Origin: a virus
Direction: 5' to 3' (one strand)
Virus record (IMG/VR): IMGVR_UViG_3300042887_003970
Location: 1 to 23,029 of that record
DNA: 23,029 nt
Under the pieces are notes generated by a model. That model worked only from the letters and a program-made list of their open reading frames with translations, was not told the DNA's origin and ran no database searches. Shown here in pieces: positions 2,948-16,625 of this stretch. Position 1 is the stretch's first letter; each line of letters starts with the position of its first letter. The position numbers and the translations under genes were made by a program.

Positions 2948-3588
2948 GGCTCGATGATCCATCCGGCGAAATCTCCAAAGCGGAAAATCTCGGTGGCCGG
3001 TTCTATCTCGCGCGGGTTGATCGGGCGTTGGATGCCTCCGAGGGATAGCTCTTTTGCCAATATCTCGCGGGCGTCTACTCCTGCCGCCGTCTTGCCTGCA
3101 AGCGCCAGCCTCCAGAGGACCGTGGCAACATAGCCTGTGGCCGGTTCGCACTTGTCGAAAACAATGATCGCCCCGCCTGGCCGTATGCGAGAACGAAGCC
3201 GAGCGATGAACTCCCCGCGCTTCGATGGCGGGACAAACATCAAGCACAAGAAAAGCACGGCAAGATCGAACGGTTGATAATCAAACTCGGCAGCGTCTGC
3301 GATGACGAGGCTGCCGGGGCCGCAATAGATTTCCGACATGGCCGCCGAGTTATCGATGGGAATTAGTTCCGCCTTGCGGGCTGTAAGTGTGTCCGCGATA
3401 GCGTTCCCGACATTCCCTGTGCTGGCTCCAATATCATACACGCGCCCGCCCTCCGGTATGTAGTGCCGGGCCACATGCGCTACCACTCCTGTCGTGAGTT
3501 CATACCACGGAAGCTGCTCGCGCACATGCCGGTCAAATTCTCCTGCGACATCGGCGGTTTTGAAAGTCCAGTCGGTTGGGATTGTCAT
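2944..3588 (-). CDS. CmoA-like class I SAM-dependent methyltransferase
   Basis: The 214-aa product has a Rossmann SAM-binding motif VYDIGASTGN (about 50-59), the acidic strand-2 end IPIDNS (76-81), and a post-motif segment RPGGAIIVFDK (136-146). The N-terminus (DWTFKTADVAGEFD, then LPWYELT) and the IDNS motif resemble CmoA, the enzyme making carboxy-SAM for tRNA wobble uridine modification, more than generic methyltransferases. The CmoA arginine-rich C-terminal segment that binds the carboxyl group is not evident, so carboxy-SAM synthesis is uncertain. It is coupled by 4-bp overlaps to the C5-cytosine methyltransferase upstream and terL downstream, which points to DNA modification linked to packaging. 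Role inferred; fold call firm. Confidence 0.75.
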   Translation of the reverse strand: MTIPTDWTFKTADVAGEFDRHVREQLPWYELTTGVVAHVARHYIPEGGRVYDIGASTGNVGNAIADTLTARKAELIPIDNSAAMSEIYCGPGSLVIADAAEFDYQPFDLAVLFLCLMFVPPSKRGEFIARLRSRIRPGGAIIVFDKCEPATGYVATVLWRLALAGKTAAGVDAREILAKELSLGGIQRPINPREIEPATEIFRFGDFAGWIIEP

Positions 3589-4637
3589 AGCTTGCGGAGG
3601 ATTTCATCGCGCACCGTTGCTGCGATGTGCGACATCATGACGGGAGGGACGGCGCGCCCGCAGCGTTCCCATTGCTGCGCGTAGGTTCCTTTTAGAATAA
3701 AGTCATCAGGGAATCCGCAGATTCGTTTGAGTTCAGCGATGGTGAATTTTCGCTTTTCATGCGGGTGCGTAATCCCAGCCGTTGAGCTATTACCATGCGA
3801 CCCGCATACGGTTGGGCTTGGCTTGTCTGGATCGGTCCGAACAAGATTGAAGTATTTGTCGGACTGCTCGCCGGGTTTTAAATTGTCCCACTCTGCGCCG
3901 ATAGCATAGCGGGTGATGTCTGTTTCTGGTTCAACTTCATGCTCAGCTTTTACGATCCACGGCAGCGCATCCCGGACGCTGTAGCGATACGCGAGCGGCT
4001 TGGGATGAACTGGATCGATGCCGAGGTCTTCACGCACGCCGATAAAAATCGTCCGCTGTCTTGCTTGCGGGACGCCGAGCCATTGCGCGTCGAGGACTTT
4101 GCAGCTCACGCGATAGCCGCAGGACTTGAGTTCTTTGAGGATTTCGAGGAAGTAGCCTTTTGCGGTTCCTTTGATGAGGCCGCTGACATTTTCGGCGACA
4201 AAAGTTTTAGGCTGTAGGCCACGGATGAGCCGAGAATATTCAAAAAACAAGTCGTCTGTCCGTTGCTCCTTGTCGCTGTATTTTTTCACCTTGCCCCATC
4301 CGGCTTCGCGTTTCCCTGCGGTAGAAAATGAAGCGCACGGCGGCGACCCGTCGAACAGGTCAAGCTCGCCGGGGTTCAATCCGGTAGCCTTTAGAATGTC
4401 CTCGGGTTGGACTTCGCGGATGTCCCTGCCGTCGACGATCGTGTGTGGAGCGGCGTTTGCTTTGTAAGAATCACGGGCTGCGTCGATAAACTCCGAAGCC
4501 CATAGCAACTTGAAACCTGCCATGCGGTAGCCTGTAGATGAACCGCCGCACCCGCTGAATGTAGAGGCTGCGGTGAATCCATTCCAGGGGAGGGAACGGA
4601 TTTCTTCCATGCTTGGGACTTTGTAAGGAGGTTTCAT
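3585..4637 (-). CDS. dcm: DNA (cytosine-5-)-methyltransferase
   Basis: It transfers a methyl group from SAM to C5 of cytosine in DNA. The 350-aa product has motif I STFSGCGGSSTG (about 25-36) and motif IV DGSPPCASFS with the catalytic Cys at about 101. Motif VI is AENV (148-151) and motif VIII is QARQRTIFIG (191-200). A target-recognition region follows, with motif IX/X near the C-terminus (RICGFPDDF; VPPVMM). The start at 4637 makes ATGA with the ParB-like gene. No restriction endonuclease is adjacent, so it is an orphan methyltransferase that could protect phage DNA from host restriction or alter packaging and expression. The target sequence cannot be read from the protein. Confidence 0.95.
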   Translation of the reverse strand: MKPPYKVPSMEEIRSLPWNGFTAASTFSGCGGSSTGYRMAGFKLLWASEFIDAARDSYKANAAPHTIVDGRDIREVQPEDILKATGLNPGELDLFDGSPPCASFSTAGKREAGWGKVKKYSDKEQRTDDLFFEYSRLIRGLQPKTFVAENVSGLIKGTAKGYFLEILKELKSCGYRVSCKVLDAQWLGVPQARQRTIFIGVREDLGIDPVHPKPLAYRYSVRDALPWIVKAEHEVEPETDITRYAIGAEWDNLKPGEQSDKYFNLVRTDPDKPSPTVCGSHGNSSTAGITHPHEKRKFTIAELKRICGFPDDFILKGTYAQQWERCGRAVPPVMMSHIAATVRDEILRKL

Positions 4638-5143
4638 TTCGTCTTGCCGCTCCATTCGTATCCGCAGCGCGGGCACTTGTGATCCGTCTCGATACCCTCA
4701 TCGAATTCTTTGAAGTCGTCAGGAGGCGCGTCTTCTTTTGTTTCGATCAAAAGCTTGTGCAGGTCGGTATCTGAAAAGCCGGTCAGGTCGAAATCGAGAT
4801 CCGCGTTTTGTGAGAGATCCGCCAGCTCGAGCTTGAGCATTTCCTCATCCCACCCGCCGCCGATCTCGGCGAGGCGGTTGTCGGCGAGGATGTAGGCTCG
4901 GCGCTGCGTGTCGGTGAGGTGGCCGAGGCGGATGCAGGGGACGCTCTCGAGGGCGAGGGATTGAGCGGCGAGGACGCGACCGTGACCGGCAATGATGCCG
5001 TTGTCCTTGTCGATGAGGACGGGGTTGTTAAAGCCGAACTCGCGGATGCTCCCGGCGAGCTTGGCGATTTGGCTGGCGTCGTGCTTTTTCGCGTTGCGCG
5101 CGTAGGGGATGAGGTCGGAGGTTTTGAGGTGTTCGATGGTCAT
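4634..5143 (-). CDS. ParB-like nuclease-domain protein with C-terminal zinc knuckle
   Basis: The 169-aa product has an N-terminal ParB/Srx-type domain: a LKTSDLIPYARNAKKH segment, then GIIAGHGRVLAA (about 49-60) with the GHGR-type motif, and RAYILADNRLAEI (82-94). The C-terminus carries CPRCGYEW (157-164), half of a zinc ribbon. In phages such ParB domains are often fused or adjacent to DNA methyltransferases. Here the gene overlaps the small terminase gene before it and the dcm-type gene after it (both ATGA). Partitioning is unlikely because there is no ParA. A role in DNA modification or nucleotide hydrolysis is more plausible but unproven. Confidence 0.85.
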   Translation of the reverse strand: MTIEHLKTSDLIPYARNAKKHDASQIAKLAGSIREFGFNNPVLIDKDNGIIAGHGRVLAAQSLALESVPCIRLGHLTDTQRRAYILADNRLAEIGGGWDEEMLKLELADLSQNADLDFDLTGFSDTDLHKLLIETKEDAPPDDFKEFDEGIETDHKCPRCGYEWSGKTK

Positions 5144-6129: not shown

Positions 6130-6551
6130 GCGAGGAGTTGGCGGATCCGTGCCGCTGTCGTCTCCATTGGCGTGAGTAGTTCGAGGGCGCGCTCGAGCCG
6201 GTCACGGTCCCACTTGCCGATATCGTCGCTCATCTTCCTCTCCCATACGGTGAACTTCTGGCTCAATCCCTCGATGGTCACGATGGCCTTGGTCTTATCG
6301 TCCGGGTTGAGGGTTGGCTTCTCGTCAGCCAAGGTGAGGCCGAGGTCAAGCTCGAGCTGTGCCTCGGTGTCGGCGGTGAACTCCATGCCCCATCGTGAGG
6401 TGCTGTAGTCTCTCGACTGACTGAGCCACTTGGAGGCGGCCCGCTTGCACACGAGGATGTCCTTATGGATATTCGTCCACTCGGCAGGGGTGAGGGTTTC
6501 GGGTAGGTTCAACGCATGGAGCGTGAACATGGTGGTGTCGATTATTTGCAT
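6126..6551 (-). CDS. Hypothetical 141-aa phage protein
   Basis: The product starts MQIIDTTMFTLHALNLPETL. It is acidic and mostly helical, with CKRAASKWLSQSRDY and an acidic stretch QLELDLGLTLADEKPTLNPDD, then a C-terminal helix with DRDRLERALELLTPM. The start overlaps the preceding HTH gene by 10 bp and the stop overlaps the zinc-ribbon gene by 4 bp. I recognise no family. Its place between HTH and zinc-ribbon genes suggests a late-regulation or packaging accessory role, with little certainty. Confidence 0.75.
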   Translation of the reverse strand: MQIIDTTMFTLHALNLPETLTPAEWTNIHKDILVCKRAASKWLSQSRDYSTSRWGMEFTADTEAQLELDLGLTLADEKPTLNPDDKTKAIVTIEGLSQKFTVWERKMSDDIGKWDRDRLERALELLTPMETTAARIRQLLA

Positions 6552-7051
6552 TTTGTGGTGATGTGGTTACTGGCTTTGTATCTTGCGATGGCAGCCGCCT
6601 TGGCCGCCGTGAATGGATCCGTCGCTTTCTCTCTGAAGGTCTGGCGCGATTTGTTGGACTTACGGAACTTGGTGCAGTCGAAGGTCTGGCTTTTGCCTGA
6701 GAGGAAATCCCTCACGCCGACGACATAATGGGAGACGAGGGCGCGTGTGACCTTTAGCTCCCGCGCTACCTGAGCCTGCGACATCTTGCCGTTGAGCTGG
6801 TCGAGGCCAGCCGCGAAGGCGATGGCGTTGGCCATGACCGGCAGGTTGTTCGTCTCGAGCAATAGCCCGACCACCTTGCCAAGCGTAAGCGCCTGCTGGC
6901 GCACCTCGGCGGCTTGGAGCATCGCAATGACCTTGCGGGCCACCGCGGGCGTGGTGCCGAGTTCATCGGCGAGCGTGTCCTCGGGTGTGTCGAGGTCGTA
7001 GTCTGGCATATAGGCAGGCTCCCCGTTCCTTGCGGTGAATGTGTTATTCAT
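6542..7051 (-). CDS. Helix-turn-helix regulator or sigma-like protein
   Basis: The 169-aa product starts MNNTFTARNGEPAYMPD. It contains a helical region (PAVARKVIAMLQAAEVRQQ) and a clear HTH, MSQAQVARELKVTRALVSHY (about 97-116), typical of Cro/C1-like or sigma-region-4-like recognition helices. A basic C-terminus rich in K and R (FRKSNKSRQTFREKATD) follows. The start at 7051 gives an 8-bp overlap with the preceding gene; the longer frame to 7135 was rejected. It most likely regulates phage transcription, possibly the switch to late packaging genes downstream. Which promoter it acts on is unknown. Confidence 0.7.
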   Translation of the reverse strand: MNNTFTARNGEPAYMPDYDLDTPEDTLADELGTTPAVARKVIAMLQAAEVRQQALTLGKVVGLLLETNNLPVMANAIAFAAGLDQLNGKMSQAQVARELKVTRALVSHYVVGVRDFLSGKSQTFDCTKFRKSNKSRQTFREKATDPFTAAKAAAIARYKASNHITTKCK

Positions 7052-10372: not shown

Positions 10373-11335
10373 TTATTTCAACGCCTCCATTGGTTGCGAC
10401 CAGAGGCTCGGGGTGACGCTGTTGAGCCTTTGATTCATAAGCTGCACATATTCGGGGTTCAGTTCGCACAGGATGGCTTTACGGCCTTCCTCCATCGCCA
10501 CTTGGCCCGTGGTTCCGCTGCCGCCGAATGGGTCAAGCACGGTGCCGCCTGTGGGGCATCCTGCGAGGATGCAAGGGCGGACTAGGTCGGTCGGGAAGGT
10601 GGCGAAGTGCGCGCCACGATATGACTTGGTTGGAATACTCCAAACGCTGCGTTTGTTTTTCTTATCTCTAATTGGCAGCTCAGATAAGGACTTCCCGCCA
10701 AGATGCCCACCCGTTCCGCAGTGTTTTTTATTCTCTGTCTGGTTCCCCCATCGCTCCCATTTTGCATCTTCCTCAATGCTTGGGGCGTCGTAAAAATACC
10801 GCGCCGACTTCGACAGCAGGAAAATGTATTCATGCGCCTTGGTGCATCGGTCGGTCACGCTCTCTGGCATCGGGTTCGGCTTGTGCCAGATGATGTCCTG
10901 CCGCAGATACCAACCGTCCGCTTGCAAAGCGAAAGCAACGCGCCATGGGATGCCGATCAGATCTTTTGGCTTACAATCAGGCGTTTGGCTTTTGATAAGT
11001 TTTCCAATAATAGTTCCAGCGCTTGTCGCTTGCTTTGAGAGTGGGTCAACATTTGGGCTGCCGTCTCCATTTCGACCCTTACCGCTGCCCGCGTAGCTGT
11101 CGCCAAGATTAAGCCAAAGCGTCCCGTAATCCCGCAGAACGCGATTCACCTCGCGGAACACTTCGACCATTTTTTGCACGAATGCTTCCGGCGTTTCTTC
11201 AAGGCCGATCTGCCCCTCGTGGCCATAGTCGCGCAGGCCAAAGTAAGGCGGCGAGGTGACACAGCAGTTCACGGATCGGGCTGGGAGCGTCTTCATCATT
11301 TCGATGCAGTCCCCGTTTAATATTTCCACAGTCAT
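10373..11335 (-). CDS. DNA methyltransferase (SPPY, beta-class; N4-C or N6-A)
   Basis: The 320-aa product carries the catalytic motif IV TSPPYFGLRDYG (about 27-38) before the SAM motif I LDPFGGSGTTG (267-277). That order defines beta-class amino-methyltransferases. The SPPY form is typical of N4-cytosine or N6-adenine enzymes; the base cannot be decided here. The ATG at 11335 forms TAATG with the previous stop and has one of the few good Shine-Dalgarno sequences in the window (GGAAGGAAATA just upstream). No endonuclease is adjacent, so it is probably an orphan methyltransferase for anti-restriction or replication control. Confidence 0.92.
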   Translation of the reverse strand: MTVEILNGDCIEMMKTLPARSVNCCVTSPPYFGLRDYGHEGQIGLEETPEAFVQKMVEVFREVNRVLRDYGTLWLNLGDSYAGSGKGRNGDGSPNVDPLSKQATSAGTIIGKLIKSQTPDCKPKDLIGIPWRVAFALQADGWYLRQDIIWHKPNPMPESVTDRCTKAHEYIFLLSKSARYFYDAPSIEEDAKWERWGNQTENKKHCGTGGHLGGKSLSELPIRDKKNKRSVWSIPTKSYRGAHFATFPTDLVRPCILAGCPTGGTVLDPFGGSGTTGQVAMEEGRKAILCELNPEYVQLMNQRLNSVTPSLWSQPMEALK

Positions 11336-11532
11336 TATTTCCTTCCCTTCATAATGTTTGCATTGCGCTCGATGTATTTCCGCACCTTCTCCATGTCCGC
11401 CTCCGCCTCTGCCTGTTCTGCCAGCGCGTAGGTGTGCCGGTAGTTCGGCAGCGGCTCCGCCCGTTGAATGCGCGGCCCGATCGGGCAGCCGTTCAAGCAA
11501 ATGGAGATGCGGAGGCTGAGGTCTTGGGTCAT
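11335..11532 (-). CDS. Hypothetical 65-aa phage protein
   Basis: The product starts MTQDLSLRISICLNGCPIG and ends in a helical, charged tail (EQAEAEADMEKVRKYIERN). It begins 46 bp after the SSB-like gene and ends in a TAATG junction with the methyltransferase gene. There is no recognisable family. It lies between recombination and methylation genes of the early region. Confidence 0.6.
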   Translation of the reverse strand: MTQDLSLRISICLNGCPIGPRIQRAEPLPNYRHTYALAEQAEAEADMEKVRKYIERNANIMKGRK

Positions 11533-14477: not shown

Positions 14478-14581
14478 CGTGACATCCTCCAGGTAATCGC
14501 CCCGAGCACCGCCGGAGCGGCCATCAGTTGGAAAAACTCGATCCCGTAACCGAGCAGGCGGAGCGTGGTCTCGTAGTCCAT
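14474..14581 (-). CDS. 35-aa small hydrophobic peptide
   Basis: The product starts MDYETTLRLLGYGIEFFQLM and continues into a hydrophobic stretch APAVLGAITW, so it may be membrane-associated. Its ATG forms TAATG with the stop of the excisionase-like gene and its stop forms ATGA with the next gene. Short, but exactly fitted to the chain. Confidence 0.5.
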   Translation of the reverse strand: MDYETTLRLLGYGIEFFQLMAAPAVLGAITWRMSR

Positions 14582-14778
14582 TACGCGGCCCTCCCCCGGC
14601 TGCTCGCCTGTTGAAGCCGGTTTCCGTGCGTCACCTTCAAGGCGCGAATGACATCGGCCTCATCAAATTTCCACTCCCGCCCGACCTTGAATCCTGGCAC
14701 TCGATTTTGTGCCGCCCATTTAAGGAGCGTCGGCCTGGCCAACCCGAGCCGTTGCGCCATCTCCGTCGCAGAGGTCAT
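14581..14778 (-). CDS. xis: Excisionase-like MerR-type HTH protein
   Basis: The 65-aa product has a helix-turn-helix and wing, EMAQRLGLARPTLLKWAAQ then VPGFKVGREWKFDEADVIRA. This is the HTH_17 or excisionase fold seen in Xis proteins and in small MerR-like regulators. The ATG overlaps the upstream RHH gene stop (ATGA). Near a tyrosine integrase it may direct excision, but it is separated from the integrase by the switch region and a plus-strand gene, so a purely regulatory role is also possible. Confidence 0.75.
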   Translation of the reverse strand: MTSATEMAQRLGLARPTLLKWAAQNRVPGFKVGREWKFDEADVIRALKVTHGNRLQQASSRGRAA

Positions 14779-14936
14779 TTCTTGGCCCTCCGTTTGTTTT
14801 TGCGATCCACCATTTCGCGGACCGCTTGAACGATCACCTTGCTCATGGTGGTTCCGGTTGATTCGGCCTCCCGCTTTACCTCCTGCCAGAGGTCTAGTGG
14901 GAAACACGCTCCCTGTTTTTTGTTCGTCGCTGTCAT
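14775..14936 (-). CDS. Ribbon-helix-helix regulator
   Basis: The 53-aa product starts MTATNKKQGACFPLDLWQEV. It has the RHH pattern: a short basic strand (KKQGACFPLD), helix A (LWQEVKREAESTG), a turn, and helix B (TMSKVIVQAVREMVDRKN), with a basic tail. Arc/MetJ/CopG-type proteins of this size bind DNA as dimers. It is the first gene of the leftward early operon and lies directly beside the GGTGCAC palindromes, the first of which is 3 bp upstream of its ATG, so it is a good candidate to bind them and self-regulate. The longer frame to 14972 would run through two palindromes. Confidence 0.78.
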   Translation of the reverse strand: MTATNKKQGACFPLDLWQEVKREAESTGTTMSKVIVQAVREMVDRKNKRRAKK

Positions 14937-15121
14937 GCGGTGCACTTTTTTATTTCGGTGCACTTTTATCAATAAAAAAAATCAATGGGGTGTTGTCCCA
15001 CCATGAAAAAAACTATTGACATCCGCATGGGGACAAGGTTTGCGGGCGAAAATATTTTTTTGGTGCACCGAAAAAATAATTGATTGCAAGGGTGCACCTA
15101 TTCGCTGACATTGTTTTCGTT
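14937..15121. promoter_or_regulatory. Switch region with four GGTGCAC palindromic operators
   Basis: This AT-rich divergent intergenic region carries GGTGCACT at 14939-14946 and 14957-14964 (18-bp phase) and the perfect palindrome GGTGCACC at 15062-15069 and 15091-15098. A near inverted pair TTGTCCC (14993-14999) and GGGACAA (15030-15036) lies between them. TTGACA occurs on the plus strand at 15016-15021 without a good -10 box. The arrangement looks like an operator array controlling the leftward early operon and the rightward regulator. Confidence 0.65.
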
Positions 15122-15451
15122 GTGGGTCGGCACAAAAAACCAGACAGCGAAAAAGTAAAAAAACCGGGAGTCTCTTTGACCCCGGAGTGTCAGGATATTT
15201 TAGCCAAAATCATCCGCTACGAGTTCGAGGTGAACCAGACCGACATGGTTCCATCTCAAGCCATCCGCAAGTGCATGAGGCTCGCGTGGGACTATCACTA
15301 CAAGGCAGCATATGAACAGCACGAAGCCATGGGACACCCCCTCCCCCAGGGCGCGTCCGCGAATATTGTGCGCCCACAATCCGTGACCTCCGCTGGTGGA
15401 TACTCAACTCAGAAAACTGCGAACTCCCTCCAAACTGGCAAGGCGAAGTGA
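15122..15451 (+). CDS. Plus-strand regulator, RHH-like
   Basis: This is the only convincing gene on the plus strand. The product (about 109 aa from GTG) begins VGRHKKPDSEKVKKPGVSL and continues TPECQDILAKIIRYEFEV, then MVPSQAIRKCMRLAWDY. That is a basic strand followed by two helices, as in RHH/CopG-like regulators. The start is uncertain: GTG at 15122 or TTG at 15080; the latter would include the 15091 palindrome. Divergent from the early operon and convergent with integrase (13-bp gap), it sits where a lysogeny repressor would. It is not a classical CI: no HTH or peptidase domain is seen. The C-terminal third is low-complexity. Confidence 0.6.
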   Translation: MGRHKKPDSEKVKKPGVSLTPECQDILAKIIRYEFEVNQTDMVPSQAIRKCMRLAWDYHYKAAYEQHEAMGHPLPQGASANIVRPQSVTSAGGYSTQKTANSLQTGKAK

Positions 15452-15464
15452 TCGACCTGACCGC

Positions 15465-16469
15465 CTAAAGCGCCCAGAACTTCTCCGCGTCCGCTTTTCT
15501 AACGCCCCGCGCGTATTTTTCCTCCACCATGCGCGCCGAGGAATGCCCGAGGAAGTAAGCCGTCTTGGAGCTATCCTGCCACATCGCCCGGTGCATGGAT
15601 GCCGCCGTGTGGCGAAGGCAGTTCTGCGGCCATTCCGCCCACTTCATTTGTTCGGCCAGCTTCGTGCGTGCGCGCTTGATGATGTCCTCGTTTATGCGCG
15701 GCCATTTTTTCGGAAGATGCCGGCGGAGGGCAGGCAGGATCGGCACGAAGCGCGGCCGGGGTTGAAGGTCCGTAGATTTGCGGATCGGGATAAAAATCTC
15801 ATCTTTCTCGATGTGCTTCGGCTCACACCGCCACACCTCCGAGATTCGCATGCCGCCAAAAACTCCGAGCACGAGCCAAGCGCGGAGGCGCGCATCTTTT
15901 TTAGTGAGCGCCAGCAACCGCTTCACCTCCGCCACCGTCAAGAGGTGATGCTCCGGCGCGGCCTTCGGCGTGTCGATCTTGAGCACCGGATTGGTCGAAG
16001 TGAGTTCGTAGCGAACCAGCCAATTCCAGACAAGCCGGAGATACACGAACCCTTGGTTCGCCGTAGTCCCTGACCACCCCGGCCGCGAGAGAAACGCATC
16101 GATGTGAATCGCTTTGATGTCGCGGAGGTCCTTCGCGCCATACTCCGCCACGAACTTCCCCCACCACCACTCCAAGAGCCGCCGGTGGTTCCCATCCTTC
16201 AGCTTCGGCATCCGCGCCAGGCAGAACTCCCTCCACCCCTGCGCCACCGTCATTCCCGCCGGGCCGGTGAAAGCCTCCGTCCCGCGAGTCTCCAGCTTCT
16301 CCAAGAGTGCCGCCTGATGAACCCGCGCCTCCGCCTGGGTGCGAAAAAATTCCCGCTTGGCGACGCCATTGATCCGCGAAAAAACCACGAAACGAGGCTC
16401 CCCCCGCACCGTAGCCGTGCGAATGGTGACAACTGGCTTGTTGCGCCGTGTTGCGCTTGTTGCGCTCAT
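15465..16469 (-). CDS. int: Tyrosine recombinase/integrase
   Basis: This phage integrase recombines attP with attB. The 334-aa product from ATG 16469 has a core-binding region (about 70-165) and a catalytic domain. Catalytic residues are Arg in GGMRISEV (R208), Lys in IRKSTD (K231), Arg in NCLRHTAAS (R286), His in LGHSS (H309) and the Tyr nucleophile in EEKYARG (Y319). The box II His is replaced by Asn (N283 of N-C-L-R), tolerated in some integrases. A TTG-started 12-residue extension was rejected. The gene begins about 110 bp from the tRNA-Thr fragment at 16579-16625, which supports that fragment as the attachment core. Confidence 0.95.
   Translation of the reverse strand: MSATSATRRNKPVVTIRTATVRGEPRFVVFSRINGVAKREFFRTQAEARVHQAALLEKLETRGTEAFTGPAGMTVAQGWREFCLARMPKLKDGNHRRLLEWWWGKFVAEYGAKDLRDIKAIHIDAFLSRPGWSGTTANQGFVYLRLVWNWLVRYELTSTNPVLKIDTPKAAPEHHLLTVAEVKRLLALTKKDARLRAWLVLGVFGGMRISEVWRCEPKHIEKDEIFIPIRKSTDLQPRPRFVPILPALRRHLPKKWPRINEDIIKRARTKLAEQMKWAEWPQNCLRHTAASMHRAMWQDSSKTAYFLGHSSARMVEEKYARGVRKADAEKFWAL
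16439..16466. repeat. Three TGTTGCGC(C/T) repeats, candidate integrase arm sites
   Basis: TGTTGCGCC at 16439-16447 is followed by TGTTGCGCT at 16449-16457 and again at 16458-16466. They lie at the integrase start, partly in codons for its SATSATRRN N-terminus. The same 9-mer recurs at 16659-16667 across the tRNA core. Placement on both sides of the core is as expected for integrase arm-type sites, but codon repetition could also explain it. Confidence 0.4.
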
Positions 16470-16578
16470 GGGGGGCAATTTCAACCATTTGCCGTGCCAT
16501 TTCAATCCATTTCGTGCGATACAGAAAAACGCCCGCCAAGCCAGTGTTTATGCGGTTCGAGGGGCTTCAGAAGGGGGG

Positions 16579-16625
16579 AGCCGACGACGGGATTTGAACC
16601 CGTGACCTATCGATTACGAATCAAA
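16579..16625 (-). other. attP core: 3' half of tRNA-Thr(CGT)
   Basis: Reading the minus strand, the 47 bp contain an anticodon loop TTCGTAA (anticodon CGT), partial anticodon stem, variable loop AGGTC, T-arm ACGGG-TTCAAAT-CCCGT, acceptor strand CGTCGGC and discriminator T. The 5' half (GCCGACG, D-arm) is absent; the upstream sequence is the end of the winged-helix gene. A 3' tRNA half beside an integrase is the classic phage attachment identity block, which rebuilds the tRNA upon integration. Its position between phage lysis and integrase genes means attP rather than attL or attR. Confidence 0.8.

Follow-up and report, generated by a model that had tools for sequence, protein, structure and literature searches.

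The block of DNA described here very probably serves as the lysis-lysogeny (immunity) switch of a phage, and one that operates without a lambda-type repressor. Comparison with related viruses makes it likely that the block is the immunity cassette of a temperate tailed phage, in which two divergent proteins of ribbon-helix-helix (RHH) type would both bind four GTGCAC operators, genes and operators being exchanged between phages as a single block. The window, that is, the whole stretch of DNA analysed, is a linear virus record of 23,029 bp, and the gap under study occupies positions 14937-15121. The phage to which the cassette belongs comes from soil and is probably a temperate tailed phage. 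An earlier note had proposed that two RHH proteins and an operator array form a lysis-lysogeny switch at this place; footprinting across relatives, matched swaps and the lack of an S24 or CI-type protein strongly favor that proposal, but one inverted pair of repeats had to be removed from the array and a family match for the plus-strand protein was not obtained.

The locus and its operator array

The gap separates two small divergent genes. The minus-strand gene at 14775-14936 encodes a 53-aa Arc-like RHH protein (PHROG 6506) and is the first gene of the early operon. Its 3' end is overlapped by an HTH_17 excisionase-like gene of 65 aa (14581-14778, minus strand; PF12728, E=5.7e-9; PHROG 1840, excisionase). 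The early operon begins with the arc-like and xis-like genes and goes on to recombination and replication genes; the minus-strand genes to the left of the excisionase-like gene include small ones with no assignment, as well as Sak4-like and DnaB-like genes. On the plus strand, the divergent RHH-like gene occupies 15122-15451. Its start was set by alignment to relatives, whose conserved ATGGG starts point to the GTG at 15122 and hence to a product of 109 aa. It is followed by a tyrosine integrase gene (15465-16505, minus strand, likely ATG at 16469; PHROG 1, E=1.2e-30; PF00589) and by a segment of 45 bp that corresponds to the 3' half of a tRNA-Thr(CGT) gene (16578-16622, minus strand) and is likely to be attP. 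Because phage genes go on beyond this attP candidate, the window represents the phage form and not the end of a prophage. A tRNA-Thr(CGT) gene with a near-identical 3' half is present in a Terrimicrobiaceae MAG, and the host is probably a member of the Terrimicrobiaceae (Verrucomicrobiota).

Several further features of the window and its relatives were recorded. The tRNA-Thr(CGT) segment also adjoins the integrase gene in L037, L041 and L046. Open frames at 3585-4676 and 10373-11500 look like DNA methyltransferases by their motifs SPPCASFS and TSPPYFGLRDY. A 168-aa HTH protein is encoded at 6542-7048, in a lytic-direction gene run before terminase; it is common to most relatives, is 168-200 aa long across several of them, and is possibly a late regulator; it may also act as a second regulator beside the switch. 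One relative, a contig of a bacterial MAG with the same type of cassette as the window (G111:C38; L166 and L167), is a complete phage genome, circular, 38,719 bp in length and with a 141-bp terminal overlap. In comparison with the window, it carries terminase, tail, lysis, integrase and replication genes, and its MAG and a Terrimicrobiaceae MAG are members of one order.

Four sites with the core GTGCAC lie in the gap. O1 (GGTGCACT, 14939-14946), at -9 from the start of the 53-aa gene, overlaps the candidate -10 element and the start, and its GTGCAC is unchanged in all 18 distinct relatives. O2 (GGTGCACT, 14957-14964), at -27, is inside the -35/-10 spacer of the same gene, exactly 18 bp from O1. 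O3 (GGTGCACC, 15062-15069) is located at about -57 to -60 of the plus-strand gene, 5' of its candidate -35 element, and O4 (GGTGCACC, 15091-15098), at about -28, directly 3' of that element. The earlier note had described four GGTGCAC palindromes, and all of them are where it placed them; however, only O3 and O4 are perfect 8-bp palindromes, whereas O1 and O2 are symmetric only in the 6-bp core GTGCAC.

The raw count of GGTGCAC in the window is unremarkable (6 hits on the two strands vs 3.07 expected), and it is the clustering and conservation of O1-O4, not the copy count, that make the array noteworthy. Four GTGCAC within 160 bp occurred in none of 400 Markov-simulated genomes (model from the complete 38.7-kb relative). 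All 22 related viral loci that have the 53-aa gene retain the array at constant spacing, and so do two bacterial MAG contigs. Among 18 distinct related sequences, with homologues of the 53-aa protein down to 62% identity, the four sites are conserved in position while flanking bases vary. For example, a paired change on both arms of O3 in L022/L024 gives AGTGCACT and retains symmetry; in L023, O3 has decayed to ATGCAC. When further copies were sought, as the earlier note had proposed, they turned out to be confined to the array: in 12 contigs of 17-44 kb with this type of cassette, RGTGCACY has three or four copies per contig, only at the cassette; it is absent from four contigs whose integrases are related but whose cassettes differ; and in the complete circular relative GTGCAC is found exactly four times, each time at the cassette. 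Such conservation indicates that the GTGCAC palindromes are real and under selection.

Two other candidates were rejected. Avoidance of GTGCAC elsewhere (as a restriction site or decoy) is not supported, as counts without the operators are near expectation and, for the complete 38.7-kb genome, P(<=4)=0.11. The spaced pair TTGTCCC/GGGACAA, which the earlier note had included in the array, does exist (14993-14999 and 15030-15036), but in most relatives its left arm is CTCCCC, TACCCC, GCTTAT or another sequence, and its right arm varies independently; being unconserved, it is not part of the system.

The two proteins and the exchange of the cassette

That the 53-aa gene encodes an RHH protein, as first suggested in the earlier note, is upheld by a match to the Arc-like PHROG 6506 (E=5.8e-6) and by an AF2 model (pLDDT 84) of RHH topology, with helices at 14-27 and 31-52. 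The predicted beta-strand and two helices, as in the RHH superfamily, go together with similarity to a known RHH family. The protein also has a CdbA profile match (E=0.0017); its matches to Pfam RHH models are below cutoff, and its best Foldseek matches are RHH proteins but weak (E>=0.4). Neither this protein nor the integrase has a protein match in the named phage collection.

The plus-strand protein had likewise been called RHH-like. Its topology and position agree with that description, but profile searches gave no family match, and Foldseek of its model, in which the C-terminus is low-confidence, returned no RHH match and no significant match. The AF2 model has an extended N-terminus followed by helices 21-38 and 44-69, a topology that fits RHH. 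A weak in-register profile match connects it with the divergent RHH-like proteins of other cassettes, and none of 60 shuffles scored as high. Topology, profile match and position together suggest, if weakly, that the 109-aa protein is of RHH type. A full-length profile match of its family to other divergent proteins (97.7%) was discarded because it was driven by the shared C-terminal tail next to the integrase gene, the N-terminal part alone giving 13.8%.

The strongest evidence for the immunity-switch reading is the exchange of the cassette. Over the integrase and xis-like genes, the window is mostly 84-100% identical to L037 and L039 (80-100% over L037, L039 and L041). Across the body of the divergent gene, the operators and the arc-like gene, identity to these three relatives falls to about 25-48%, that is, to unrelated sequence, and inside this otherwise exchanged block an island of 68-84% identity remains at the core; for L037 and L039 its identity is 78-84%. 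Swaps of proteins together with operators between otherwise similar phages are the hallmark of a heteroimmunity region.

At least eight protein/operator types are arranged around the constant core, with their words at equivalent positions: GTGCAC and GGTGCACC in type A (the window), GTAATAC/GTATGACC in type B, GGTAGCACC in type C, TTTGTGCACAAA in type D, GTAGTA/TACTA in type E, GGTGCAATGCACC in type F (L049/L145), TGTGCACA in type G and TTGGCAA in type H. Each replaced block has a small arc-like gene followed by xis and its own repeated word, to which all types but F add a small divergent gene. Counted from the start codon of the arc-like gene, the operators are at -27/-9 in type A, -26/-8 in type C, -27/-6 in types D and G, and -36/-27/-18 in type H. 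The spacing is 18 bp in type A, where the O1-O2 distance is invariant, and equally 18 bp in type C with another word, 21 bp in types D and G, and a 9-bp tandem in type H; the layout is either a tandem array or a pair of sites separated by about two turns of the helix. The type-F cassette yielded no divergent RHH gene, so the pair is not universal, and type F may represent a switch with only one side. In L049, two small genes, one of them arc-like, lie in tandem in the slot between the integrase and xis-like genes, together with the operator GGTGCAATGCACC.

The type-A cassette also adjoins integrases that are only ~28% identical. Among the proteins of other cassettes there are several direct RHH/Arc matches, mostly sub-threshold, with PF03869 above cutoff for one type-D divergent protein. 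At the residues corresponding to Arc positions 9/11/13, in a hand alignment covering few cassettes, the two proteins have K-G-C/K-G-S in type A, K-S-S in both in type B, H-G-R/F-S-R in type D and F-G-R/F-A-R in type G; a similarity of DNA-contacting strand residues between the two partners of a cassette is suggestive only. The 3' tail of the divergent gene (15385-15451 in the window) is almost the same in types A and B, the gene bodies being unrelated, which places the integrase-side recombination joint inside the 3' end of this gene.

The core consists of a left block (14982-14995; GTCAATGGGGTGTT in relatives) and a right block (TATTGACATCCGCATG...TTTGCGGGCGAAAA, 15014-15052), both retained in cassettes whose proteins and operators are unrelated. 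As TATTGACATCCGCATG...TTTGCGGGCGAAAA plus (G/A)TCAATGGGG, it is present in one copy per genome. For the 53-aa gene, the putative promoter comprises a candidate -35 element TTGATA (14967-14972, minus strand, 36 nt before the ATG) and, after a 17-nt spacer, a weak candidate -10 element AAAAGT (14949-14944, minus strand). For the 109-aa gene, the candidates are TTGCAA (-35; 15084-15089, plus strand, 38 nt before the start) and GACATT (-10; 15107-15112, plus strand). The candidate -10 elements are poor, a sigma-70 consensus scan found no promoter, and an Rfam search gave no match. A TTG is located 35-38 nt before the arc-like start in 6 of 8 types (-36/-37/-38) and at -35 to -38 on the divergent side in 5 of 6, with binomial probabilities of about 1e-4 and 2e-4, respectively, which are indicative only, as the interval was chosen after inspection. 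Since this is the distance expected of a -35 element if transcription begins at the start codon, both genes are probably leaderless, with operators that would overlap spacer, -10 element and start.

A model of the switch and its alternatives

We infer that GTGCAC is the word bound by both proteins, and at the same sites. The gene order suggests a lytic role for the 53-aa protein and a lysogenic role for the 109-aa protein: the arc-like gene heads an operon with xis and recombination/replication genes, as cro and arc do, and the divergent gene is thus the natural candidate for the lysogenic repressor. The 53-aa protein would be made first from the early operon and would then shut this operon off, like Cro or P22 Arc. 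The 109-aa protein would be the CI/Mnt-like repressor of lysogeny. Bound to O1/O2 over the leaderless early promoter, it would silence the lytic operon, excision included; bound to O3/O4 over its own promoter, it would regulate itself, and O3, upstream of the -35 element of the divergent gene, could serve this autoregulation. Occlusion of RNA polymerase would be the simplest mechanism. Immunity specificity would reside in the pairing of DNA-binding strand and operator word, and for that reason the block would be exchanged as one heteroimmunity cassette. The cassette may be the only switch of the phage. The earlier note had claimed that a CI-type repressor is absent, and the claim holds in 10 related viral records, in which the S24 peptidase (PF00717) has no match and HTH_3 is never above cutoff.

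It is unlikely, in our view, that only the 53-aa protein binds the palindromes, as an autorepressor of the early operon that also acts on the divergent gene, and that control of lysogeny lies in another part of the genome, for instance with the HTH protein near terminase. A significant RHH-type family match was indeed obtained only for the 53-aa protein, and the HTH protein at 6542-7048, itself a weak match, is shared by most relatives. However, the run of genes that contains the latter has the lytic direction and precedes terminase, and the protein is not CI-type by domain content. In the swaps, the divergent gene moves as one with the operator and the arc-like gene; this would be expected only of a gene whose product is linked to their specificity.

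The position of the module between int and the excisionase-like gene could also indicate that the RHH proteins act at int/xis to set integration versus excision, with secondary effects on transcription; Apl of phage 186, which is both excisionase and regulator, provides a precedent (PMC7498355). We regard such a directionality switch as very improbable, since the operators are about 1.5 kb from the attP candidate and absent from it, the cassette is found with unrelated integrases, and the sites keep constant positions relative to the start codons. Hardly any weight can be given to a toxin-antitoxin or plasmid-partition-like RHH module that adjoins the integrase by chance: although the weak Foldseek matches of the 53-aa protein include RHH antitoxins and structures of MazE/VapB type, the neighbouring genes have no toxin fold or ParA-like partner, the two genes are divergent and not co-transcribed, and the slot is always refilled by other small, mostly RHH-like regulators.

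Returning to the immunity switch, we extend it, tentatively and with slightly more doubt than confidence, to a lineage of Verrucomicrobiota phages. In this lineage, an RHH pair reading the same short word would be the only immunity system, at least eight mutually heteroimmune specificities would have been recombined into one constant divergent promoter core, recognition would depend on a few beta-strand residues shared by the partners, and induction would proceed without S24 cleavage.

Significance and comparison with known systems

Bacterial phages that have been studied well usually rely on an HTH protein as their main repressor of lysogeny; the RHH pair of P22 is accessory. Our search of the open literature, with sparse coverage of subscription journals, found no report of a bacterial tailed phage whose immunity region consists of RHH proteins only, and it brought up no account of an RHH-type pair that appears to be the sole immunity region and comes in many exchangeable specificities. 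Nor did the literature search find a characterised repressor for environmental Verrucomicrobiota phages. If our reading is true, this natural series, in which a single fixed promoter frame has taken up eight or more RHH pairs, each with its own operators, would be a ready set for the study of RHH-DNA recognition and of how immunity specificities diversify. It would also be a source of small orthogonal repressors and would supply a lysogeny switch for environmental Verrucomicrobiota phages.

Lysogeny of the fusellovirus SSV1 is kept by F55, a small RHH protein that binds repeats at early promoters (PMC5569661). In that archaeal virus, a single RHH protein acts on tandem ATAGATAG repeats at several dispersed promoters, and no paired divergent RHH gene is described, unlike the cassette here.

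The closest known system is immI of the Salmonella phage P22, where Arc acts in the lytic cycle and Mnt in lysogeny (PMC7549136). As here, two small divergent genes for RHH-type proteins, mnt and arc, have their operators in the shared promoter region, and P22 Arc has the same size, 53 aa, as the Arc-like protein of the window; the layout is matched, while the RHH assignment of the 109-aa protein is weak. In P22, immI is the second of two immunity regions, the other being immC/c2, whereas no c2/CI-type repressor was detected in the 10 related viral records. The antirepressor gene ant is under immI control in P22; in the window, the early operon starts with the arc-like gene and includes xis, and no ant is seen 3' of the arc-like gene, the next genes being the xis-like HTH_17 gene, small genes without assignment and the Sak4-like gene. 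The operator also differs from that of immI in being a short GTGCAC palindrome.

With the lambdoid imm region, the cassette shares a divergent repressor/Cro arrangement, common operators over both promoters and block exchange between near-identical phages, proteins and operators being exchanged together between otherwise similar phages. The lambdoid repressor is an HTH protein, CI, with an S24 cleavage domain, whereas RHH-type proteins of 53 and 109 aa are found here and PF00717 is absent from the 10 viral records; the route of induction must therefore differ. The earlier note had considered the switch to be unlike lambda, but its layout is the classic divergent repressor/Cro arrangement, and it comes closest to P22 mnt/arc.
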